Positions 17,082-30,697 of a DNA stretch of 64,000 nt are shown one piece after another. A program made the translations under genes and the position numbers. The stretch covers positions 62,001 through 126,000 of the forward strand of contig NZ_JBFNXJ010000007.1 of assembly GCF_040812015.1 (NCBI RefSeq), read 5' to 3'. Under the pieces are notes generated by a model that worked only from the letters and a program-made list of their open reading frames with translations, was not told where the DNA came from and did no database searches. Source of the DNA: Chitinivorax sp. PXF-14 (lineage in GTDB: Bacteria; Pseudomonadota; Gammaproteobacteria; Burkholderiales; SCOH01). Each line of letters begins with the position of its first letter. Position 1 is the first letter of the stretch.

Positions 17082-18308
17082 TCAGGCGCGCAGCTCGGCG
17101 AGACGCGCGTTGTGCTCCCTGAGCCAGCCGGGCAAGGCGTCGCCGGCCATCGGCCTGGCGATCAGGTAGCCCTGGCCCAGCGTGCAGCTCGATGCCTGCA
17201 GCAGGCGCCAGTCCTCCATGGTCTCGACGCCCTCCGCCACCGTGGTCAGCTTGAGGCGGTTGGCCATGTCCAGCGCCGACTGCAGGATCACGCGCAGGTG
17301 CTCGCGCTGGTGCGCGCCATGCACGAAGGAGCGGTCGACCTTGAGCTCGGTGAACGGGATGCGCGACAGCTGCTGCATCGAGGCAAAGCCGGTGCCGTAG
17401 TCGTCGATCGACAGCCCGAAGCCCTTGAGCCGCAGCCGCGCCAGCGTGCCGAGCGACATGCCGAGATCGGCCACGATGGAGCTCTCCGTCACCTCCCACA
17501 CGATCTGCTCGGCCGCCAGCCGGTGGGCGTTGAGCAGCTCGGCCACCTCGGTGACGAATTCGGGTCGGTTCAGCAGCAGCGGCGACAGGTTGACGGCAAC
17601 CGACAGCTTGAGGCCATGCGCGTTCCAGACCGCGGCCTGCTCGAAGGCCTGGCGCACCACTTCGAGCGTCAGATCGTGGATCAGCCCATGCGACTCGGCC
17701 AGCGGGATGAACTGCACGGGCGGAATCCAGCCGTGCTCGGGGTGCTGCCAGCGTGCGAGCGCCTCCACCCCCTTGATCATGCCGGTCTTCATGTCGACCT
17801 TGGGCTGGAAATGCACCGAGATCGTCCGCGACACGATAGCGTGGGCCAGCTCCGCGATGCTGGCCACGGGCGCCGGGCTGGTCACTGGCGTGTAATGGCC
17901 GGGGGTGTCGCGGTGCCGCAACAGCGCGGCGCGCAGCTGCGCCTCGGTCAGCGGCTTCTGCAGCGCGGCCAGCAACGGCAGGCCGAGCGCCTGGGCCATG
18001 GTCTCGACCGAGCTGATCAGCGTGCTGTCCTTGCTCGACGCCACGATCAGCAAGGCCGGCAGATGATGTTTGGCGAGCTGGTGGATGAACTCGACGCCAT
18101 CCATGCCCGGCATTTCGAGGTCCACGATCACCAGCCGCGGGTGCGGCAGGGTGGCCAGTTTCAGCAGCCCCTCGGCGCCGTCCGCCGCCTCGTATACCTG
18201 GGCCATGCCCACCTTGCGGCACAGCTCCACGGCATGCTGCCGCTGCAGCGGGCTGTCGTCGACCACCAGCACGATGTCGATCGGCGGGTTGAGCGGATCA
18301 ACGGCCAT
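17082..18308 (-). CDS. Response regulator with EAL (cyclic-di-GMP phosphodiesterase) domain
   Basis: The 408-residue protein joins an N-terminal receiver (Asp63 as phosphoacceptor, in [12 protein letters not shown]; acidic pair in VVDDSP) to an EAL domain. The EAL metal- and substrate-binding residues all appear: EALARW (182-187), [32 protein letters not shown] and GQGYLIARP. It should therefore hydrolyse cyclic-di-GMP to pGpG, probably under control of phosphorylation by the neighbouring CheA. The start overlaps the end of cheB by 11 bases, so translation is probably coupled and the gene belongs to the chemosensory operon. There is no GGDEF partner domain. That CheA is its kinase is inference from position. 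Confidence 0.9.
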
Positions 18309-19416
18309 GGCGCTCGATCACTGTGGCAATGCGGTCGAGCGGGATGACCTCGCTGACGCCGCCCAGTGCAATCGCCTCCTTGGGCATGCCGAACACGACA
18401 CAACTCGCTTCGTCCTGGGCATAGGTGGTGGCCCCCGTGCCGTGCAGCTCCTTGAGCCCGCGCGCGCCGTCGTCGCCCATGCCGGTCATGATGAAGCCGA
18501 CCGCGTTGCGCCCGGCCGCCTTGGCCACCGAGCGGAACAGCACATCGACCGATGGCCGGTGGCGGCTCACCAGCGGGCCGTCGACCACCTCGACGTAGTA
18601 TTGCGCACCGCTGCGCTTGACCAGCATATGCCTGCCGCCGGGCGCGATCAGCGCCAGGCCGGGTACGATGCGGTCGTTGCTGGCGGCCTCTCTCACCTCG
18701 ATGCGCGACAGGCTGTTGAGGCGACTGGCAAAGCTCTGCGTGAACTTCTCCGGCATGTGCTGTACGACGACGATGCCCGGGCTGGTGGCCGGCAGCGCCG
18801 TCAACACCACCTCGAGCGCCTGGGTACCGCCGGTCGAGGTGCCCAGCGCCACGATCTTCTCGGTCGTCGGCAGGTGATGCGCCGCACCCGGCGCATCGAG
18901 AATGGCGTCGGCCGACAGCTTGGGCGCCGCCATGCGCTCGTTGATCAGCGCATCGACGCCGCCGGGGCGTGCCGCTGGCCGCTCGGCCCCGGCAGGCGCG
19001 GGCCGCAGCCGGTTCATGCGCGCCTGAGCTGCGGCGCGCACGGCCGAGATCAGGTCGGCGGAGCTGTCCTGGATGAAATCGCGCAGGCCGATCGAGGGCT
19101 TGGTGATAACACCGATCGCGCCGGCAGCGAAGGCCTGCATGGTCACGTCGGCACCCTTCTCGGTCAGCGACGAACAGATCACCACCGGGGTCGGGCGCGA
19201 AGCCATCAGCTGCTTGAGAAAGGTGATGCCGTCCATGCGCGGCATCTCGATATCGAGCACGATCACGTCGGGCCACACCGTCTTCATGCGCTCCATCGCG
19301 AACAACGGGTCGGACGCGGTGCCGACGATCTCGATGTCGCGGTGCTTGCCCAATACCTCCTGCATCACCTGCCGCACCACGGCAGAGTCGTCGACGATCA
19401 GTACCTTGATGCTCAT
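18298..19416 (-). CDS. cheB: Chemotaxis protein-glutamate methylesterase CheB
   Basis: CheB (372 residues) removes methyl groups from, and deamidates, MCP receptors and so resets their sensitivity. The N-terminal receiver carries Asp55 ([13 protein letters not shown]), which CheA phosphorylates. A proline/alanine-rich linker follows, then the esterase domain with Ser ([13 protein letters not shown]), His ([14 protein letters not shown]) and Asp ([12 protein letters not shown]) of the catalytic triad. Start at 19414-19416 ([10 protein letters not shown]) gives a product of normal length; it is two bases downstream of the cheD stop. The gene overlaps the downstream response-regulator/EAL gene by 11 bases. 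Confidence 0.97.
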
Positions 19417-19418
19417 GG

Positions 19419-19904
19419 CTAGGCCGGCACCGCCTGCGGCATGGAGGCGCCATAGCGCACCCACACGTCGCCGGTATCGAGTTGAAATCGCAGGTAGCGG
19501 TAGCCGCGGCCGCCGAGATCCTGGTTGATTGCCTTCAGGCCGGTGTCGGCGATCAGCGTGCGGGCGAACTCGGCGTTGATCTGCCCGACGCCCTCGGCCT
19601 GCTCGCGGTCGAACACGCGCGCGCCGCCGAACAGCTTGACCTCGCAGCCTTCGATATCGGCACCGTGCGCCGCCATCTGCCCGCACAGCAGCGCCATCGC
19701 CTCGTCGCCATAGCGCCCGTCGAGCGCCGCCGGAGCGCGCTGCGGCATGCCATGCCTGGGCAGCAGGAAATGGCACATGCCGCCGATCTGGCGGCGTGCA
19801 TCCCACAGGGTGATGGCGACGCAGGAGCCGAGCACGGTTTCGATGCGCTCGTCGGGGCGGCCGACATAGACCTCGCCCGGGTTCAGGTAGACGCGGATGC
19901 TCAT
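19419..19904 (-). CDS. cheD: Chemoreceptor glutamine deamidase CheD
   Basis: CheD (161 residues) deamidates glutamines in MCPs and tunes adaptation together with CheB and CheR. The active-site Cys lies in [13 protein letters not shown], the His in [10 protein letters not shown] and the third residue in the KLFGGARVF region, as in the family. The start was set at [12 protein letters not shown] (19902-19904) because it overlaps the upstream cheR stop in an ATGA and the family starts just there; the longer frame to 20759 lies across cheR. It stands between cheR and cheB in the usual adaptation block. Confidence 0.95.
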
Positions 19905-20728
19905 GGCGCGCGCTTCCGGTAGATCGACGGCATCACCAGCTCCAGCCCGCTGTCCATGCCGTGCAGGCTTTCCGAATGGCCGACGAACAGCCAGCCGCCC
20001 GGGCGCAGGTGCTCGGCCACGGCACGCACCACGCGCGCCTTGGTCGGCAGGTCGAAATAGATGATCACGTTGCGCAGAAACACCACGTCGAACAGGCCCA
20101 GGGATGAAGGCAGCCCCATCAGGTTGAGCTGCCGGAATTCCACTTTCTTGCGCAGTTCCTGTTGCACCAGGAACTGCCCCTCGTACTGCCCCAGCCCCTT
20201 GAGGCAGAAGCGTTTCAGGTAATCCTTGGGGATCTTTTCCCCGCGCGCCATCGGGTACAGGCCACGGCGCGCCGCCGCCAGCACGCGGCTCGAGATGTCG
20301 GAGCCGAACACCGCCCACGGCAGATGTGCGCGCGTCGCTTCGAGCAGCATCGCCACCGAGTAGGCTTCCTCGCCGGTCGAGCTCGCCGCGCTCCATATCT
20401 TCAGTGTATGCGAGCGATCGGCGCTCGGCAGGATTTGCTGCCGCAGAAAATCGAAATGCTTGTGTTCGCGGAAGAAGTAAGTCTCGTTGGTGGTGATCAG
20501 GTCGATCGCCTGCTGCCGCTCCTCGTCCTGCTCCGGCGCCATCAGCAGGTTGTAATAGTCCTTGAAGCTGGGGAGCCCGAGCATCCCCAGTCGCTTGACC
20601 AGGCGCCCGCTGACCAGCGATTTCTTCGAGCTCGACAGGTGCAGGCCGATCTCGCTGTGGAACAGCTGCCGCAGCAGGCGGAACTCCTCGTCGGACAGCG
20701 TGGATGGCGGCAGCATCATCGCACCCAA
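19901..20728 (-). CDS. cheR: Chemotaxis protein-glutamate methyltransferase CheR
   Basis: CheR (275 residues) uses SAM to methylate receptor glutamates. The N-terminal all-helical domain (about 1-85) ends before [17 protein letters not shown], which contacts [21 protein letters not shown] is the glycine-rich SAM loop (CSTGEE-like), and [10 protein letters not shown] is the post-motif strand. No pentapeptide-binding beta subdomain seems missing. The local MCP lacks a terminal NWETF-like pentapeptide, so methylation would occur without receptor tethering. The stop overlaps cheD by four bases and the start is 11 bases past cheW. Confidence 0.96.
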
Positions 20729-20739
20729 TGGGGAGCCCC

Positions 20740-21276
20740 TCAGTCTGCGGTTTCTTCACCGTGCGTCAGGCCGATCAGCGCCGACATCTCGTCCACCGAC
20801 AGCACCTGATGGATGTCGAGCGTGATGACGAAACGGTCGTTGCGGCTGAACATGCCCTCGATGAAGTCGGCGCGGATCTTGGCGCCGAACGAGGGCCTGG
20901 GCTCCATCTCGCTGCTGTCGAGCGTCAGCACCTCGTTGACGGCATCGACGATCACGCCGAGCGGCTGCATCTCCTCTTCCTGCGCCACCTCCAGGATCAC
21001 GATGCAGGTGCGCCGCGCGATCTGCGTCTCGCTGCGGCCGAAGCGGATCGACAGGTCGATCACCGGCACCACCGCCCCACGCAGATTGATCACCCCGCGC
21101 AGGAAGGCCGGCATCAGCGGTATCTCGGTAAGGCCGCCAAATTCGATGATCTCGCGGATATGCTCGATCTGGATCGCAAACAGCTCCGCTCCCAGGGTGA
21201 ACGTCAGGTACTGGCGCGTCTGTACCTGCTCCTTGGCCTTGACGGCCCTGCCGTTCTGCGTCGCAAGCTGGGACAT
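20740..21276 (-). CDS. cheW: Chemotaxis coupling protein CheW
   Basis: CheW (178 residues) couples receptors to CheA in the cytoplasmic array. It shows the double SH3-like barrel pattern: QYLTFTLGAELFAIQIEHIREI, LRGVINLRGAVVPVIDLSIRFG and the C-terminal VDAVNEVLTL. An extra 20-residue N-terminal tail and an extended C-terminus (GLTHGEETAD) make it slightly longer than E. coli CheW (167). It lies 11 bases from the MCP stop and 11 bases before cheR, inside the operon. Confidence 0.95.
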   Translation of the reverse strand: MSQLATQNGRAVKAKEQVQTRQYLTFTLGAELFAIQIEHIREIIEFGGLTEIPLMPAFLRGVINLRGAVVPVIDLSIRFGRSETQIARRTCIVILEVAQEEEMQPLGVIVDAVNEVLTLDSSEMEPRPSFGAKIRADFIEGMFSRNDRFVITLDIHQVLSVDEMSALIGLTHGEETAD

Positions 21277-21287
21277 GGGCGTATTCC

Positions 21288-22934
21288 TCAGAAACGGGTG
21301 AACGAGGTTTCGTCGACCGTCTCGTCACCCCGGCTCGCCTGTGCCGCGCGCGCGCGCGGCTGGGCGGCTGCGGCCTTGCGCTGGGCCGGGCGCTGGCCGA
21401 CGACCTTGCGCCCCTGGCCATCCACCTTGAAGAAGGTGATCAGCTCCTGCAGCTGGATGGCCTGCGCGCTCATTTCCTCCGATGTCGACGACAGCTCTTC
21501 CGAGGCCGAGGCGTTCATCTGCGTGGTCTGCGCCAGCTGGGTCACCGCGGTATTGATCTGCTCCAGCCCGTTGGTCTGCTCGCGCGAGGCGGCAGTGATT
21601 TCCTGCACCAGGTCGGCCGTCTTGCGGATCGACGGCACCATCTGGTCGAGCAGGCCGCCGGCGCGCTCGGCCAGCGTCACGCTGTTGCCGGCCACCGAGC
21701 CGATTTCCTGCGCAGCGACCTGCGAGCGCTCGGCCAGCTTGCGCACCTCGGCCGCCACCACGGCGAAGCCCTTGCCGTGCTCGCCGGCACGCGCGGCTTC
21801 GATCGCCGCGTTGAGCGCCAGCAGGTTGGTCTGGTAGGCGATGTCGTCGATGATGCCGATCTTGTCGGCGATCTGGCGCATGGCCACCACCGTCTGTTTC
21901 ACCGCGTCGCCACCTTCGGCCGCATCGGTCGACGATTTGCTCGCCATGCCGTCGGTGACGCGGGCGTTCTCGGCGTTCTGCGCCACAGTGGCGGAAATCT
22001 CCTCGACCGAGGCGCTGGTTTCCTCGACGTTGGCCGCCTGCTCCGAGGCATTCTGGCTGAGCGCCTGAGCCGAGGCCGACACCTCCTCCGAGGCCGAGGC
22101 CAGCGAATCGGCCGAGGTGCGCACGTCGGAGATGATGTCGGTCAGCTTGGTCACCACTTGGCGCAGGCTGAACAGCATGCTGCTGCTGTCACCCTGGCGC
22201 ACCGGCACATCGACCGTCAGGTCGCCCTCGGCAATGCGCTGCAGCAGATCGACAGCATATTCGGGCTCACCGCCAACCTGGCGCGTGACAATTCTTGCCA
22301 GCAGGATACCCAGGGCGATCGATAGCCCAAAAGCGATCAATACCGCCACAATGGTCAACAGCCGTACGCTCGATACCATCTTGCTGTTTTGCTGGTTGGC
22401 GTCTTCGGCCTGCTTCTCGTTGTCGGTGGCAATCTCGTCAAACACCTTGTCGATCTTGCCGATCAGGATACGCAAGTCGCCGTTGATCAGCTTGGTCGCC
22501 TCCTGCTCCTGCCCGCCCCTGATCAATTTGATGGCGTTGTCGCTCATCTTGAGATAATCGGCTTGCATCACCTTGAACTCCTCGCGCCACCGCACCTCAT
22601 TGGCGGAGGGCTCGGTTTTCAGGTACAGGTCCCAGAATTTGTTGGTCTTCTCGTTATACCCTTCGTATCTGGACACGGAGGCATTCAGGCCCTCGGGGTC
22701 GGCCGCCTGACTCATCATGCGCACCACCGTGCGTGCCGAAGCGACCATATTCACATTGGCTCGTCCCAGATTGCTGATGGCCAGCAGGTTGGTGACATAG
22801 ATGCTCTCGCCACCCTCGCCGACCCGCTGGATGTTGATCACACCCCACGCGCCGATGATCAAGGTCAACATGGACGACAACACGAATGCCACCAGCAGCT
22901 TGGACCCCAGCTTCAACCTCATGAACCATCCCAT
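21288..22934 (-). CDS. Methyl-accepting chemotaxis protein of the chemosensory operon
   Basis: A 548-residue receptor of classic topology. A first membrane helix ([19 protein letters not shown], about 14-32) is followed by a periplasmic four-helix-bundle type sensor of about 160 residues, a second helix ([21 protein letters not shown], about 196-216), a HAMP domain (about 217-270) and a signalling domain with the invariant hairpin [44 protein letters not shown]. The extreme C-terminus (DETSFTRF) is not a canonical CheR-tethering pentapeptide. The start is ATG 22932-22934 with AAGGAGA seven bases upstream. The gene lies 10 bases after cheA. Ligand is unknown. Confidence 0.93.
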
Positions 22935-22944
22935 TGCCGTCTCC

Positions 22945-25146
22945 TTAACCAATATTTTGTTGTGGACTGGACTGCTGCGACAGCGACGCGTCCCTAGCCG
23001 CCCCCTCGCTACGACTGGCACTCGTCACCAAGTGCGGTACATCGAGAATCAGCGCCACCCGCCCGTCGCCGAGAATGGTCGAGCCGCCGATGCCCTTGAC
23101 CCGGGTGAACAGGCTGCCCAGCGGCTTGATCACCGCCTGGAATTCACCGAGCAGGCGGTCCACCACCAGGCCGGCGCGGGTCTGCCCGTACTGCACCACG
23201 ACCAGGCTTTCGCGCCGTGGCGCCTCGCCCGGCAGCTCGAACAGCTCGCGCAGGCGCAGGTAGGACAGCGGCTCGCCGCGCAGATTGACGATATGGTGGG
23301 CATTGCCGGCCGAACTGTGGTCGGCGCATTCGATCACCATGTCGAGCGGGATGACGAACACGGCATCGTTCACCATGACCTGGAAGCCGTCGATGATCGC
23401 CAGCGTGAGCGGCAGGCGGATGCGCACCGTGGTGCCCTGGCCGAACACGCTGAGGATATCGACCTCGCCGCGCAGCGATTCGATGTTCTTTCTCACCACG
23501 TCCATGCCGACGCCGCGCCCGGACAGGTTGGTGACGGCCTCGGCGGTGGAAAAGCCGGGCTCGAAGACGAGGTTGAAGATCTCGCTTTCGCTCAGCACCT
23601 GGTCGGCGCTGACCAGGCCACGCTCGATCGCCTTGGCGAGTATGCGCTCGTGGTCGAGACCCTTGCCGTCGTCTGACACCTCGATGACGATGCTGCCCGA
23701 CTCATGATAGGCATTGAGGCGCAGCGTGCCGGTGAGCGGCTTGCCGCGCTCCAGGCGCACCTCGGTGGGTTCGATGCCGTGGTCCATGGCGTTGCGCACG
23801 ATATGCATCAGCGGGTCGGCGAGTTTCTCGACCATCGATTTGTCGAGCTCGGTCTCGGCGCCGGTGATGACCAGCTCGATGTTCTTGCCGAGATCCTTGG
23901 AGATGTCGCGCACCACGCGCGGAAAACGCTGGAACACCTCGCCGATGGGCACCATGCGCAGCGTCAGCGCGGCATCGCGGATCTGCTCGACCAACGCAGA
24001 CAGCGTCTGCGTGGCCTCGTCGAACTGATTGTCCTGTTTCTTCTTGGCCACCAGGTTGGCGCCGGCGCCAGCGATCACCAGCTCGCCGACGAGGTTGATC
24101 AGCTGGTCGAGCTTGTTCACCTCGACCTTGATGAAACGCTGCTCCTGCGTGCGCTTCTCCTCGCCCTGCTTCTGCTTGGAGAGCGCGGCGGCGACCACCG
24201 TGCCGGGCACCAGCTTCTCTTCGACCAGCATGGTGCCGATCGGCTTGGGCGGGATCGGCTGCGCCTGTTGCTTGTCGAGAATGGCTTCAAGCTCGTGCTC
24301 GGTCAGCGCGCCGCCCTTGACCAGTATCTCGCCCAGCCGCTTGGGTGGCTCGGGCAGGGTTTCGATCAGCTTGATGTATTCGGCGATCTTGCTGTGCGGC
24401 GGAATGATGTGGATCTGGCTTTCATCGCGCACGAACTCGAAAACCCCGTCGATGGTCTGGCGGTCGGCATCCGACGCAAAATCGATCTCGAAGCCGAGGT
24501 AGCAGCTTTCCGGGTCCAGCTGCTCGGCGTCGGGCAGGTTGTCGACCAGCGTGTGCAGGTAGGTGATGCGGCCCAGCGTGGCGAGGTAGCGGATGAAGGA
24601 CAGCGGGTCCATACCGTTCCTGAGCACGTCGATGCCGAAACGCAGCGACAGGTGCCAGGTGTCGGCATCGACATGGCCGCCGCCCTCGATCTCGACTGCC
24701 GCCTCGCTCGGCTCCGCCTGCGGGCTGGTGGTGGCGGGCAGGTGGACGGCATCCTTCACGCCGAGATAGCCGTTGAGCCCCGCTTCGAGGTCGATGCGCG
24801 CCGCTGGATCGGGGTCGTCGCGTTCACGGCCGTCCTCTATCATATCGATGAGCGCCGAGATGTAGTCGCCGCAGCGTAGCAACAGCGACAGCATGGCCTC
24901 GTCGATGGCGAGCTTGCCGTTGCGCACGCGGTCGAGCAGGCTCTCGACGATATGGGTGAAGGCCACCACGCCGTCGAGCGCGAACAGCCCGGCCGAGCCC
25001 TTGATGGTGTGGGCCGCGCGGAAGATGGCGTTGATCGCCTCGGGCGTCGCGCCACCCTGTTCGATATCGAGCAGCGCCGCCTCCATCGCGGCCAACAGCT
25101 CCCTCGCCTCCTGCACCAGCGCACTGCGTGCGGCATCGAGCTCCAT
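22945..25146 (-). CDS. cheA: Chemotaxis histidine kinase CheA with an inserted MshEN-like motif
   Basis: The 733-residue kinase phosphorylates CheY, CheB and probably the EAL regulator. It has an HPt domain with His46 (AHTIKGSAG), a middle domain (about 164-260), a dimerisation/HATPase part ([30 protein letters not shown]) and a C-terminal CheW-like domain. Between the middle and dimerisation domains, residues 270-325 hold two 24-residue repeats. The first starts [10 protein letters not shown] and ends LDKQ; the second starts [10 protein letters not shown] and ends ALSKQ. This pattern resembles the MshEN (T2SSE N-terminal) domain, a cyclic-di-GMP receptor. That resemblance comes from reading motifs and is not proven. 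The start, ATG 25144-25146, is 8 bases past the STAS gene stop. Confidence 0.95.
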
Positions 25147-25154
25147 GGCGGCCC

Positions 25155-25475
25155 CTAGTTGAGATGGGTGATCAACACCGGGTCGCCCAACACCCCGGCC
25201 AGGTTGAGCAGGTCGATCACGCTCAGCGCCGCGGCACTATGACGCACGAAGCTCAGCTGCCTGGCGGTGCGCGCCGCCTCGCGCTTGAGCATGAGCATGA
25301 GCTGCACACCCGAGGTATCGATCTCGTCCACGTGCGACAGGTCGATCTCGATGTCGTGGCCGCTCGCCAGGCACTCCAGCAGGGCCGGCTTGAGCTCCGC
25401 GGCACGAAAGATGTTGAATTCACCTTCGATGCGAGCCAGGATACGCTCGCCTTGTTGCTCGATGACCAGCGCCAT
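25155..25475 (-). CDS. STAS-domain protein in the chemosensory operon
   Basis: A 106-residue single-domain protein of the STAS family (sulfate transporter and anti-sigma factor antagonist). The LSHVDEIDTSGVQLMLMLKR segment carries the Asp-x-Ser/Thr pattern around the phosphorylation site found in SpoIIAA-type proteins (Asp-Thr-Ser, near residues 53-55). No partner kinase or anti-sigma factor is visible nearby. STAS genes occur next to cheA in several chemosensory clusters, where they are thought to join the signalling array or MlaB-type processes; the role here is open. It lies between cheY and cheA with 8 and 26 base gaps. Confidence 0.85.
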   Translation of the reverse strand: MALVIEQQGERILARIEGEFNIFRAAELKPALLECLASGHDIEIDLSHVDEIDTSGVQLMLMLKREAARTARQLSFVRHSAAALSVIDLLNLAGVLGDPVLITHLN

Positions 25476-25501: not shown

Positions 25502-25870
25502 TTAAGGGAGAATCAGCTTGGCTACGGCATCCAGCAGGATAGGCGGCTGGAATGGCTTGATCACCCAGGCACGCACGCCGGCCGCCTTGCCTTCGGCCTT
25601 CTTGGTCTCGTCGGCCTCGGTGGTAAGCATGATGATGGGCGTGAACTTGTAGTTGGGCAGCTGCTTGGCCGCCTTGACGAAGGTGATGCCGTCCATGTTC
25701 GGCATGTTGACGTCGGAAATGATCAGGTTGAACTTGCGCCCGTCGAGCTTGGTCAGCGCGTCCTTGCCGTCCACCGCCTCCACGACCTCGTAGCCGGTAC
25801 TTTTCAGGGCAATCGCCACGGTCTGCCGCAGGCTGAAGGAGTCATCCACGATCAGGATGGTCTTGCTCAT
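25502..25870 (-). CDS. cheY: CheY-type single-domain response regulator
   Basis: A 122-residue receiver with Asp53 as phosphoacceptor (LIISDVNMPNMDG), the acidic pair in IVDDSFS, the conserved Thr in MLTTEAD and Lys in VIKPFQPP. It is of the CheY/PilH type and would carry the signal of CheA to the flagellar motor or another output. It is the first gene of the operon, so it may be the most abundant. The start has GGTATCGAGTA upstream, a weak ribosome binding site. The intergenic region of about 120 bp before it holds an inverted repeat and probably the operon promoter. Confidence 0.92.
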   Translation of the reverse strand: MSKTILIVDDSFSLRQTVAIALKSTGYEVVEAVDGKDALTKLDGRKFNLIISDVNMPNMDGITFVKAAKQLPNYKFTPIIMLTTEADETKKAEGKAAGVRAWVIKPFQPPILLDAVAKLILP

Positions 25871-25989: not shown

Positions 25990-27117
25990 TCAGAAAAACT
26001 CGACCGATGACGTCGCCACGCCGGCCGTCGCGCTGCCCGCATGCGCCTCGCGCTGTTCCAGCGTGGTATAGGTTTTTTCCAGATCGGCCAGCCAGCGCTC
26101 GCGGTCGAGTGCCGGTATCAGCCCCTGGCGCCCGGCCGTGTCGATGGCATCGCGCAGCTTGTCGATATCGCGCTGCACATGGTCGAGAATCTGGCTCACC
26201 CGGTCCTGGAACTGCAGGTTCACCAGCACATCCTGCACCTCGCGTTCCACCGCCTTGCTTTCGCCCTCGAGCTGCTGCACGGTCTGGTTCAGCCTGACCG
26301 CGGTTTGCTGGAAACCCGAGATCACGGCACGGATCACCGTGTTGGAGTTGCCGATCAGCGCGGCGTCGTCCTGCGCCAGCCGGTCGGCCACCGCCGACGC
26401 AGAGCCGATGGCCTGGTTCACCGCATCCACCTTCTCGCTGATGCGCTTGCCCGTCTCGCCCGACATGGTGGACAGCTTGCGCACCTCATCGGCCACCACG
26501 GCAAACCCCCGTCCCGCCTCGCCCGCCCGCGCCGCCTCGATGGCGGCATTGAGCGCCAGCAGATTGGTCTGCGTGGCGATGGCGCCGACCTCGGAGGCCA
26601 TCCGCTTGAGCTCTTCGTTGAATTGCCCCAGCTCACTGATCTCCTTGAGCAGCTGGCTGCGTGCCCCCAGCGCCTGTTCGAGCGCCTGCACGATGCCGCC
26701 GAGCTCCTGCTCGGATTGCGAAATGGCGTGCAGCACCTCGCCGCCGCTACTGGCAGAGGCCAGCGATACCGCCGCGCCGAGCCGCTCGTTGATGCCGGTG
26801 AAGCGCATGGCCAGGGTATCGACCGCCTCCCGCGTCTGGTTCCGGCCCAAGTCGATGTGGCGGCGCCACAGCGGCAGGATGCTGGCCAGCAGCGGCGACA
26901 GGGTATCGGCTGCCGGCTCCGGGCCGGCCTGGGCTGCATCGCCCACGGGCGGCATCCCTTGGGCGACAGTGGGCGGCTTCGACAGCCACAGCCAGGCAGC
27001 GCCGATCAGCAGACCGGTAATCAGCCCCTGCCACCAGCTGGCGGCAAGCACGCTCATCAGCACTAGGTTGACCAAGGCGAGCACACCCGCCAGCAATAGA
27101 TTTCTCGGTAAGGACAT
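25990..27117 (-). CDS. MCP-like signalling protein with an N-terminal membrane hairpin
   Basis: The 375-residue protein starts with two membrane segments ([19 protein letters not shown] and [16 protein letters not shown]) and has no periplasmic sensor. The cytoplasmic part contains the MCP hairpin tip region ([20 protein letters not shown], then [20 protein letters not shown]) and a coiled coil ending in [22 protein letters not shown]. Such receptors sense cytoplasmic or membrane state. Start chosen at ATG 27115-27117; a TTG at 27132 would add five residues. Its stop lies 119 bp upstream of cheY on the same strand, so it may be cotranscribed, but it is more likely a separate unit. Confidence 0.85.
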
Positions 27118-27474
27118 GTTCGGCAATCGCAATGGTCTCTGTATCGTGCTAGTTGATCGCGCAGACTAAAGCAAGCCGGCCAGGGGCGGCCCCGCGCAGC
27201 ATCGTGAAAAAAACCTGCACCGCGCGCAAAATTCTTGCGTATCACGCGATTGGCATATCACGTTGACAATCGCTGCCGGGCACGGCAATATCTATTTGAT
27301 ACATCAGTCTTTTCTACTATTCCCGCATTGCGGGATTCGCATCTTCTTCCCGCAAAACCCCATCAGCCGGGGCTTGGCGGCTCACAGAACCTTTGCAATT
27401 CCGGCCAAACAGTGGTTCGATACGCAGTCAGGCCATGTCCCGGCCCTGCTCCGACAATACCAAACGAGGATTCC
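27118..27474. other. 357-bp gap holding promoters of the MCP gene and the HU gene
   Basis: No gene is supported here. The strand-divergent neighbours both need a promoter in it. A good sigma-70 element toward the HU gene is at 27263-27291. The rest is moderately AT-rich with short pyrimidine runs and no hairpin of note. Confidence 0.7.
27263..27291 (+). promoter_or_regulatory. Sigma-70 type promoter for the HU-like gene
   Basis: TTGACA at 27263-27268 is followed after 17 bases by CAATAT at 27286-27291, an excellent -35 and spacing with a fair -10. It points toward the HU gene and predicts a leader of about 175 bases. Confidence 0.6.
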
Positions 27475-27776: not shown

Positions 27777-27806
27777 CAGCCCCGCAAACGCGGGGCTGTT
27801 TGTTTT
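27777..27806 (+). terminator. Rho-independent terminator of the HU gene
   Basis: CAGCCCCGC pairs with GCGGGGCTG across an AAAC loop and is followed by TTTGTTTT, 23 bases after the HU stop. The convergent peroxidase gene ends at its distal edge. Confidence 0.9.
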
Positions 27807-30697
27807 CACGGGGCGGCGAAGGCCGGATCGCTCTCCGCACCCGGCCTCGGCTTCCAGGCAATCGAGTAATAGTGACCACGGGCGCGCGCCCACGGGTCGA
27901 ACACATTGCGCACCGACTGTAGCTCGGGCGCCAACTCGGGCATCGCACGCAGCAGCACGCGCTTCAGCGGCGACACCTCGACCGCGTGGCCGTTGTCGGC
28001 CTCGGGCTCCATCTTCCGCCCATCCGGGCCGTTGTTGTTGACCCAGTCCACCCCAAGCCTGGTGTAGAACTCCGGGCGGAAGCTGGAGGTAAAGAAACGG
28101 TCGCTGAACAGCCGCCGCGAGGCGTTGAGGATGAACACCTGGAACTGCGTCTCAGAGATCGCGAAGCCATGTGGCCGCGTGAATTCCGCCAGCCAGCCGA
28201 CCACGGTATCGACATCCTCGATGTTGTCGACCAGGCTGCCATCCGGGTGGCCCAGGCAGTCGTTGATCGGCGAGCCGTCGTCGTTGCGCTGTGAGCTGGT
28301 GATCACCTTGGTGGCATCGCAGCGATGCTGGCCGTAGACCTCGCGCATCACGCCGATGATGCGCTCCTGCTCGTGCCGCTGCGGCGAATCGGCCGGCAGT
28401 GTGTGATCGACGAAATCGTCGAAGCCCGTCAGTGTCTTCAGCCCGTACTGGCGGCGGAACTCGTTGAAGCGCGGCACACCGCGCTCGCGGTCGCGCAGGA
28501 TGTCGAGCGCGGCGATATCGGCCTGCCGGATCGGCGCGGGCTGGCGCGTGATGTCGAGATTCTGCAGGAATTGCGGCGTGTTCTGCAGCGTCAGCAGGCC
28601 CAGCCGCTGGCGCCCCATCGACAGTGCCCAGCTGGCCAGCCCGTGATCGCGCATGGCGGCGGTGGCGCGGCCACGGAAGGTCTGCACCACGGCCACCTTG
28701 TTGCGGATCTGGTTCGGGTCCTGGTTCCACTCGCGGTATTCGATCAGGTCCGGCACCAGGGCGTGCAGCCGGTACACCGACACGAATTCCTCGGGGAAGT
28801 TGAACGGTGAGCCGAAGTGGTTGATGCCGCCGTTCACATGGTCGGGATTGGAGATGCGCCACAGGTCGTCCTTGGCCGGGTCGTATGCGGCGAATACCCT
28901 GTCGTCGGCGTAGACATGGCTGCCCAGGCCGAAGATGCCCGGCCCCGAGGCAAAGGCCGAGTACCATTGCGTGGCTTCCTTGGCCTCCTTCGACTTGCCG
29001 AAGTTGTCCGTCACGATCTTGGCCAGCGCGCGCTCCACCAGCTCCTTGCCGTCGAACAGGCCCTTCCAGTTCGAGTTCATGCCCAGGTAGAGCGGCTCGT
29101 CGTAGAGCAGCTGCGGCGTCCACTCGGTGGTATGGATCTTGGCGATCTCGGCCGACACCACCAGCCGTGCCGCCTCGAACAGCTCGCCCGCGCTCACATC
29201 GCGGTTGGTGATCACGCGGTCCGGCTCGCTCGGCCGACGCAGACCCGAGTCCTCGTCCGGCTTCGCCGCGGCCAGCTGGCGGAAGGCATCGACAAAGGCA
29301 TTGTGTTCACGCGCGAACAGATTGGTGTAGAAGCTCGTGCCAATCGACCAGTTGTCGGGGAAGGCCGTCGCCTCCTGGCCCGACCACTGCGGCGCGATCG
29401 GGTCACCCGCCTCGAACACCGGCAGATAGCCCTTCGCCTCGCCCTCACCGGGGCGCTTGCCCACATGCACCAGCAGCAGCCTGGCCGGGTCAGCCGGCGA
29501 GCGCTTCACGCGGCGGCGCGAGGTGTCGTCGTAGCCATAGATCTGCGAGGCATCCCACCAGGCCGTGACATTGTTGCGCATGGTCTTGTAGGCGCGCGTG
29601 AGGTGCGGCTTGCCATCTACCGTGATGACAGCCGGCGCGCCGCTGTCGGCGACGTAGCCGCGGTCGATCACGTCCGCCGGGCGGCAGCCCAGCCGCGCGA
29701 CATCGGCCGGGCTCAGCGGCTGCTCGACATTGCCGACGCGCTGCGAGGAGCAGCCCAGCGGCATCGTCGCGGTGTCGTTGTGGCCGTCTTCCAGATGCGA
29801 GAACCAGTCGTGGGTCATGAACTGGATCCAGAACGCCGCCAGCACGTTGAAGAACGGCGCCTTCTGATAATCGCAGCTCGCCGCCGGCGAATCCCCGGGC
29901 AGGCCGTAACCGTGCTGGCACTTGTCCGGCTGCGACTGCTGGCGCGTCAGCAGCTTGCGGCTGATCACCTGTGGGTCGGGCCGCAGCAGCGCCAGGCGGT
30001 CGCCATGGCGGTTGCGCGCGAGCAGGTTGTCGCTCAGGTCGGGAAAGGTGGTCTCGAACTCGACATTACGCGCAAACAGCTGGTGTGACGCCCCCATGGC
30101 CGGGTTGCGCAGATCGTTGCAGCTGCCGTCGAGATTGCGGAAGCGGATCAGCTCGCCCTGGCACAGCTGCGGGCCGGCGCCGCCGACCGCGGCGTAGAAC
30201 GGATGGCCGCTGGCGAGCCGCATCTCCGGCCAGGTCTTGATCGCAGGCCCGGCGACACCTTCACGTCCGAGCAGGTAATCGCGGAAGGTGCCGCTGTTGT
30301 CGAACAGGTTGAACTTGATCAGCTCCATGCGCTGGTATTCGAGATCGAGCAGCGCACCGTCGATGCCTCGCCCGTTCGCCCCGAGGTGGCCACCGACACC
30401 ATCGCTGCCGGGCGTGAGGCTGCCCGTGTCGGCGGTGGCCCAGTAATGCGCCCAGTCGACGTAGGGCAGGCCCATATAGGCCTTGGCACGAGGCCCGCCG
30501 CGGCAACCGGCGGTCGCCGGCTGCACCTTGCCGAGAAAGCGCTGATCGCGCTCGGCGGCGATCGGGCGGAAACCACCCAAGAGCATTTGGCCACAATCGC
30601 CGGCATCGGCCGGCGCCTCGTCCTGCGGCGGGTTGCTTGCACAGCCGGCCAGCGTGGCCACCAGAAACAGCAACAGTCCCAAACAGCGCGTCGTCAT
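27806..30697 (-). CDS. Large lipoprotein of the animal heme peroxidase superfamily
   Basis: The 963-residue protein starts with a lipoprotein signal (LLFLVATLAGCAS, lipidation Cys19), so it should be membrane-anchored outside the cytoplasm. The peroxidase domain shows a distal His296 (IQFMTHDWFS), the WWDASQIYGYD segment, a distal Arg463 (FAREHNAFVD), and the proximal-side motif VYRLHALVPD with His645. The Tyr three residues before that His matches the arrangement of cyclooxygenase Tyr385/His388 and plant alpha-dioxygenases. The domain ends with a DILRDRERGVPRFNEFR segment typical of the superfamily. It could oxidise fatty acids or halides; substrate is unknown. Neighbours give no further hint. 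Its stop abuts the HU terminator. Confidence 0.88.
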   Translation of the reverse strand: MTTRCLGLLLFLVATLAGCASNPPQDEAPADAGDCGQMLLGGFRPIAAERDQRFLGKVQPATAGCRGGPRAKAYMGLPYVDWAHYWATADTGSLTPGSDGVGGHLGANGRGIDGALLDLEYQRMELIKFNLFDNSGTFRDYLLGREGVAGPAIKTWPEMRLASGHPFYAAVGGAGPQLCQGELIRFRNLDGSCNDLRNPAMGASHQLFARNVEFETTFPDLSDNLLARNRHGDRLALLRPDPQVISRKLLTRQQSQPDKCQHGYGLPGDSPAASCDYQKAPFFNVLAAFWIQFMTHDWFSHLEDGHNDTATMPLGCSSQRVGNVEQPLSPADVARLGCRPADVIDRGYVADSGAPAVITVDGKPHLTRAYKTMRNNVTAWWDASQIYGYDDTSRRRVKRSPADPARLLLVHVGKRPGEGEAKGYLPVFEAGDPIAPQWSGQEATAFPDNWSIGTSFYTNLFAREHNAFVDAFRQLAAAKPDEDSGLRRPSEPDRVITNRDVSAGELFEAARLVVSAEIAKIHTTEWTPQLLYDEPLYLGMNSNWKGLFDGKELVERALAKIVTDNFGKSKEAKEATQWYSAFASGPGIFGLGSHVYADDRVFAAYDPAKDDLWRISNPDHVNGGINHFGSPFNFPEEFVSVYRLHALVPDLIEYREWNQDPNQIRNKVAVVQTFRGRATAAMRDHGLASWALSMGRQRLGLLTLQNTPQFLQNLDITRQPAPIRQADIAALDILRDRERGVPRFNEFRRQYGLKTLTGFDDFVDHTLPADSPQRHEQERIIGVMREVYGQHRCDATKVITSSQRNDDGSPINDCLGHPDGSLVDNIEDVDTVVGWLAEFTRPHGFAISETQFQVFILNASRRLFSDRFFTSSFRPEFYTRLGVDWVNNNGPDGRKMEPEADNGHAVEVSPLKRVLLRAMPELAPELQSVRNVFDPWARARGHYYSIAWKPRPGAESDPAFAAP

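Follow-up and report, generated by a model that had tools for sequence, protein, structure and literature searches.

An MshEN_N domain, a candidate cyclic-di-GMP receptor, lies between the P2-like and P3 domains of a Chitinivorax CheA histidine kinase

The window, by which we mean the whole 64,000-nucleotide stretch of contig NZ_JBFNXJ010000007.1 of Chitinivorax sp. PXF-14 that was analysed, carries a chemosensory gene cluster in the order MCP, CheY, STAS, CheA, MCP, CheW, CheR, CheD, CheB and REC-EAL (Table 1). An earlier reading made from the sequence alone had the operon ending with an EAL regulator, and this gene is indeed present and looks intact, with the motifs EALAR, IDDYG and EGVE recognisable by eye. 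An animal haem peroxidase domain is recognised (Pfam PF03098, E=4.6e-64) in the 963-aa product of window positions 27806-30697, also on the reverse strand.

Table 1. Genes of the chemosensory cluster and segments of its CheA, with positions in the window.
Feature	Position	Strand	Basis or remark
MCP-signal protein, 380 aa, first in cluster	25990..27132	-	Pfam MCPsignal; position conserved
CheY-type receiver	25502..25870	-	Pfam PF00072
STAS domain protein, anti-sigma antagonist-like	25155..25475	-	Pfam STAS_2
CheA histidine kinase, 733 aa, P1(Hpt)-P2-like-MshEN_N-P3-P4-P5	22945..25146	-	translation, Pfam, AlphaFold
P1 Hpt domain, residues 8-98	24853..25125	-	Pfam PF01627
P2-like domain, residues about 160-250	24397..24669	-	secondary structure in AlphaFold model; no Pfam match
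MshEN_N-like domain, residues 270-325	24172..24339	-	NF053729, PDB profile matches, predicted fold
Motif I, residues 270-293	24268..24339	-	one core position is A, otherwise consensus
Linker QAQPIPPK, 8 residues	24244..24267	-	between motif I and motif II
Motif II, residues 302-325	24172..24243	-	R38->P, L39->I, G47->K, L54->V vs V. cholerae MshE
P3 dimerisation domain, residues 337-392	23971..24138	-	Pfam PF02895
Transmembrane chemoreceptor	21288..22934	-	Pfam 4HB_MCP + MCPsignal
CheW	20740..21276	-	Pfam
CheR methyltransferase	19901..20728	-	Pfam
CheD-like deamidase	19419..19904	-	named from sequence and operon position; matched across relatives
CheB methylesterase	18298..19416	-	named from sequence and operon position; matched across relatives
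REC-EAL response regulator, PvrR-like	17082..18308	-	Pfam PF00563 E=1.6e-66, PF00072; NCBIfam PvrR 7.8e-92

The CheA protein has the Hpt, P3, HATPase_c and CheW domains expected of such a kinase, and its phosphorylatable histidine, H46, is invariant. Pfam places Hpt at residues 8-98, H-kinase_dim at 337-392, HATPase_c at 444-581 and CheW at 587-709, and gives no match of any kind for residues 99-336. It is within this stretch that the sequence-only reading had described two 24-residue repeats, at residues 270-325 and between the middle and dimerisation domains; the coordinates and residue numbers are exact, and the segment is flanked by the P2-like domain on one side and P3 on the other. Scored against the strict MshEN consensus for each 24-residue motif, RLGxx(LVI)2xxG(LVI)2xxxxLxxxLxxQ, the motif pair reaches 17 of 22, far above chance, the best of 1000 shuffles of the protein having scored 14. 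Motif I departs from the consensus at a single core position; motif II agrees at 7 of 11 strict positions and at 10 of 11 positions of the relaxed motif of Wang et al. (2016; PMC5013675), failing at G47.

Profile comparisons, which had been proposed as a check, identify the segment as well. NCBIfam NF053729, which models the MshE-related c-di-GMP motif over 53 positions, matches CheA at residues 270-325 with E=5.7e-8; its curated cut-off is 38 bits, and the score is 32.4 bits for the whole protein, below that cut-off, and borderline for the segment taken alone, at 38.2 bits for 76 aa and 37.2 bits for 97 aa. The same model matches all 66 family segments of our alignment A1, the window's included, at E<0.001 (best 4.6e-13). 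A profile built from these 66 segments matches PDB entries of PilF (1.3e-20), PilB (5.7e-11) and MshE with c-di-GMP (5htl; 2.6e-7), as well as 8pfa, the c-di-GMP-binding domain of PilF (E=1.9e-5). The Pfam model named MshEN, PF05157, has no match in CheA or in any of the 66 segments. In other open reading frames of this genome PF05157 lies directly downstream of NF053729, adjacent and non-overlapping, so that it covers the MshEN_C half here, and it misses CheA because CheA lacks that half. Weak similarity to Pfam DUF4388 is seen in 40 of the 66 members (best 4e-4).

The predicted structure agrees with this assignment. AlphaFold models the segment alone with a mean pLDDT of 81 and four helices at about 90, and models the full-length CheA with a mean pLDDT of 86 and blocks of 88-93 across residues 271-330. 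The helices occupy residues 271-277, 283-295, 303-309 and 315-338, reproducing the four-helix fold of MshE 9-61, and helix 4 (315-338) runs up to P3, whose own helix follows at 343-369. Foldseek gives the PilB N-domain (7lkm) as the most probable match (probability 0.96, 1.6 A over 51 columns) and also finds MshE bound to c-di-GMP (5htl; 0.84, 1.8 A over 58 columns); the respective E-values of 0.97 and 2.4 are not significant, which is to be expected of a domain of about 60 residues. The profile, the match in sequence to MshEN domains of known structure and the predicted fold all back the MshEN-type identity first suggested from the sequence, and we regard it as near-certain that CheA 270-325 is homologous to MshEN_N, standing between P2 and P3 without MshEN_C.

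Among the other frames of this genome with MshEN_N motifs are the following two. One (G000:C7:133331-133486, L007), which lies some 7 kb past the end of the window, is a 239-aa frame with a strong motif (63.5 bits) that precedes a region of unknown function, with no ATPase recognisable by eye; the other (G000:C4:211943-212098, L009) has an N-terminal motif in a 312-aa frame with the look of a ParA/EpsG-type chain-length ATPase.

Of 399 genomes sampled within the order, 84 have full-length orthologues of this CheA. Among 93 orthologues that were aligned, 68 carry the segment, 66 of them recognised by the two-motif pattern and two (L065 and L113) by eye. The linker between the motifs, 5 residues in the canonical MshE and 8 in the window's CheA, ranges from 5 to 20 among the relatives. 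In the wider class, profile scores fall into two clean groups, above 72 bits for frames of CheA length and below 47 for the others, and named relatives include Andreprevotia, Thauera, Azospira, Duganella, Aquabacterium, Pseudomonas, Aeromonas and Methylococcales. No relative was found in viral contigs, and public plasmid records annotate such proteins as CheA only. Mapped onto a kinase-core tree, a quick build with many weak forks, presence of the domain requires 11 changes, at least four of which are forced by supported branches. Some CheAs that lack the domain retain eroded remnants of motif I, such as CGALTEAEAAEL in L100 and CGSLDEAELAAL in L103. The domain was probably ancestral in this CheA family and lost several times, a history more in keeping with an added regulatory part than with one on which catalysis depends, and the decayed remnants suggest that it is dispensable for the kinase itself. 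Decayed forms of motif I occur in L100, L101, L103, L105, L109 and L049, and most of the operon is kept where the context is available.

Whether the domain is likely to hold a ligand can be judged from the residues that contact c-di-GMP in MshE. Across the 66 segments the equivalents of G11 and G40 are kept in all 66, those of Q32 and Q61 in 65 each, and the Leu29 equivalent is invariant. Mean conservation is 3.76 bits at the twelve MshE contact positions, 3.16 at the hydrophobic core and turn, 2.29 at other motif positions and 2.22 in the flanks; contact positions exceed other motif positions (p=1e-4) and do not differ significantly from the hydrophobic core (p=0.10), and part of the conservation therefore reflects the fold rather than the ligand. 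The second half-site is consistently altered: position 1 is Arg in 55 of 66 sequences in motif I, and in motif II, where MshE has Arg38, it is Pro in 45 of 66 (P302 in the window's CheA), the Gly47 turn is variable and Leu54 is replaced by Val. Helix 4 of motif II also has a family-specific conserved Ala-Ala pair and a Lys (positions 19, 20 and 23 of A1), which are not MshE ligand contacts and possibly form a packing or partner surface.

In the binding data of Wang et al. (2016; PMC5013675), variants of MshE at Gly11 or Gly40 show poor, if any, binding and single changes of conserved hydrophobic contacts weaken it more than 10-fold, whereas changes of Arg9, Asp12 or Gln32 cost at most about fivefold; at position 1, K, P and N are permitted besides R in their relaxed motif. 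Since the relaxed motif accepts Pro and the Arg9 change is tolerated to this degree, we take the replacement of Arg38 by Pro as a departure from the typical sequence and not as the failure of a defining feature. Nor is the missing MshEN_C an obstacle, because the isolated MshEN_N (residues 1-62) binds c-di-GMP with a KD of 0.35 uM (PMC5013675). By analogy with known MshEN domains, the CheA MshEN_N probably binds c-di-GMP, with an affinity that is uncertain.

The altered second half-site admits other readings. The fold may have become a structured spacer between P2 and P3 whose nucleotide binding has gone, as in XpsE of Xanthomonas, and this would accord with a motif II that lacks R38 and G47 and has Val for L54, with the repeated loss of the domain from operons that were retained, and with contact positions that are not significantly better conserved than the core. 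We consider it unlikely, however, given that both Gly and both Gln equivalents are kept at 98-100% in 66 divergent sequences and Leu29 is invariant, and that a surface Gln has no evident reason to persist in a mere spacer; in XpsE, Gly11, Gly40, Leu29, Leu58 and Gln61 are all changed (Wang et al. 2016, PMC5013675). Retention of the Gln and Gly ligand contacts likewise speaks against the bundle being a docking module for a PilZ protein or a CheY/STAS partner, in the manner of the PilB N-domain that binds PilZ. The top Foldseek match is that very domain in complex with PilZ (7lkm), and the conserved A19, A20 and K23 of motif II lie outside the MshE ligand contacts; even so, we would give this possibility only a small chance.

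A further alternative accepts a nucleotide ligand and changes its identity or range: with motif I near-perfect and motif II consistently changed across the family (P1, V17 and K23), the modified half-site could read another dinucleotide, such as 3',3'-cGAMP, which VcMshEN binds weakly (PMC5013675), or serve a lower-affinity range. The abundance of c-di-GMP enzymes in the genome, with 49 GGDEF domains, makes this improbable, and for the same reason c-di-GMP is very probably produced in this organism.

From the EAL regulator at the end of the operon, the sequence-only reading had proposed that the operon may both read and change the level of c-di-GMP, and the comparison of relatives does not bear this out. 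Among operons with complete context, REC-EAL is found in 16 of 49 with an MshEN-bearing CheA and in 10 of 18 without, which is no enrichment and runs in the opposite direction (Fisher p=0.10); controlling for the tree leaves only 3 independent supported pairs, too few to settle the matter. As REC-EAL is no commoner beside MshEN-bearing CheAs, a c-di-GMP loop with the EAL gene is without comparative support.

The best explanation of the locus, to which we assign a probability of about 0.6, is a c-di-GMP-sensing MshEN_N module that feeds into the CheA dimerisation helix. What the analysis itself shows is the homology, the predicted fold, the conservation and the place of the domain beside P3. 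One molecule of c-di-GMP would be bound between the two helical repeats and would hold helix 4 in place; in the model this helix passes almost without a break into those of the P3 dimerisation domain, and its positioning could alter how CheA autophosphorylates or how it is coupled to the receptor array. Control of the kinase by MshEN_N and the direction it would take are inferences, the control itself at roughly even odds. More tentative, and somewhat short of an even chance, is the general proposal that the chemosensory kinases of a widespread beta- and gammaproteobacterial lineage sense intracellular c-di-GMP directly, using an MshEN_N domain whose second half-site is modified, and gate their output between P2 and P3 with no PilZ adaptor. 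To our knowledge, links between c-di-GMP and chemosensory arrays run via adaptors or CheY-like effectors (MapZ-CheR and Cle proteins). If the proposal is true, a kinase with its own c-di-GMP receptor puts the motile-to-sessile signal directly on the array. Members of the family are common, and their sequences are available from, among others, Pseudomonas, Aeromonas, Thauera and Duganella.

One close counterpart is the MshEN_N of Vibrio cholerae MshE (5htl), with which the CheA segment shares two 24-residue motifs, four helices and the Gly and Gln contacts, at 29% identity over the structural match. The two differ in that CheA has no MshEN_C, a linker of 8 rather than 5 residues and the motif II changes R38P, L39I, G47K and L54V, and in that the domain forms the N-terminus of a secretion ATPase in MshE, whereas in CheA it lies inside a histidine kinase. 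The best profile match, Thermus thermophilus PilF (6f8l and 8pfa, the latter titled as a c-di-GMP binding domain), differs in being a pilus ATPase with several tandem MshEN domains. In gene content the cluster is like the F7/F8-type clusters of Ortega et al. (2020; PMC7184735), with cheY, anti-sigma antagonist, cheA, mcp, cheW, cheR, cheD and cheB, and the main text of that paper does not mention c-di-GMP. The earlier reading knew of no CheA of this kind. Wang et al. (2016), however, had named MshEN associated with CheA and CheX (PMC5013675, Suppl. Table 4), the same domain pairing, given there as a bioinformatic association. Our literature search, which covers few subscription-journal papers, found no experimental test of an MshEN-bearing CheA. 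The MshEN-CheA fusion is therefore a type already listed in 2016, of which the present member has a modified second half-site.
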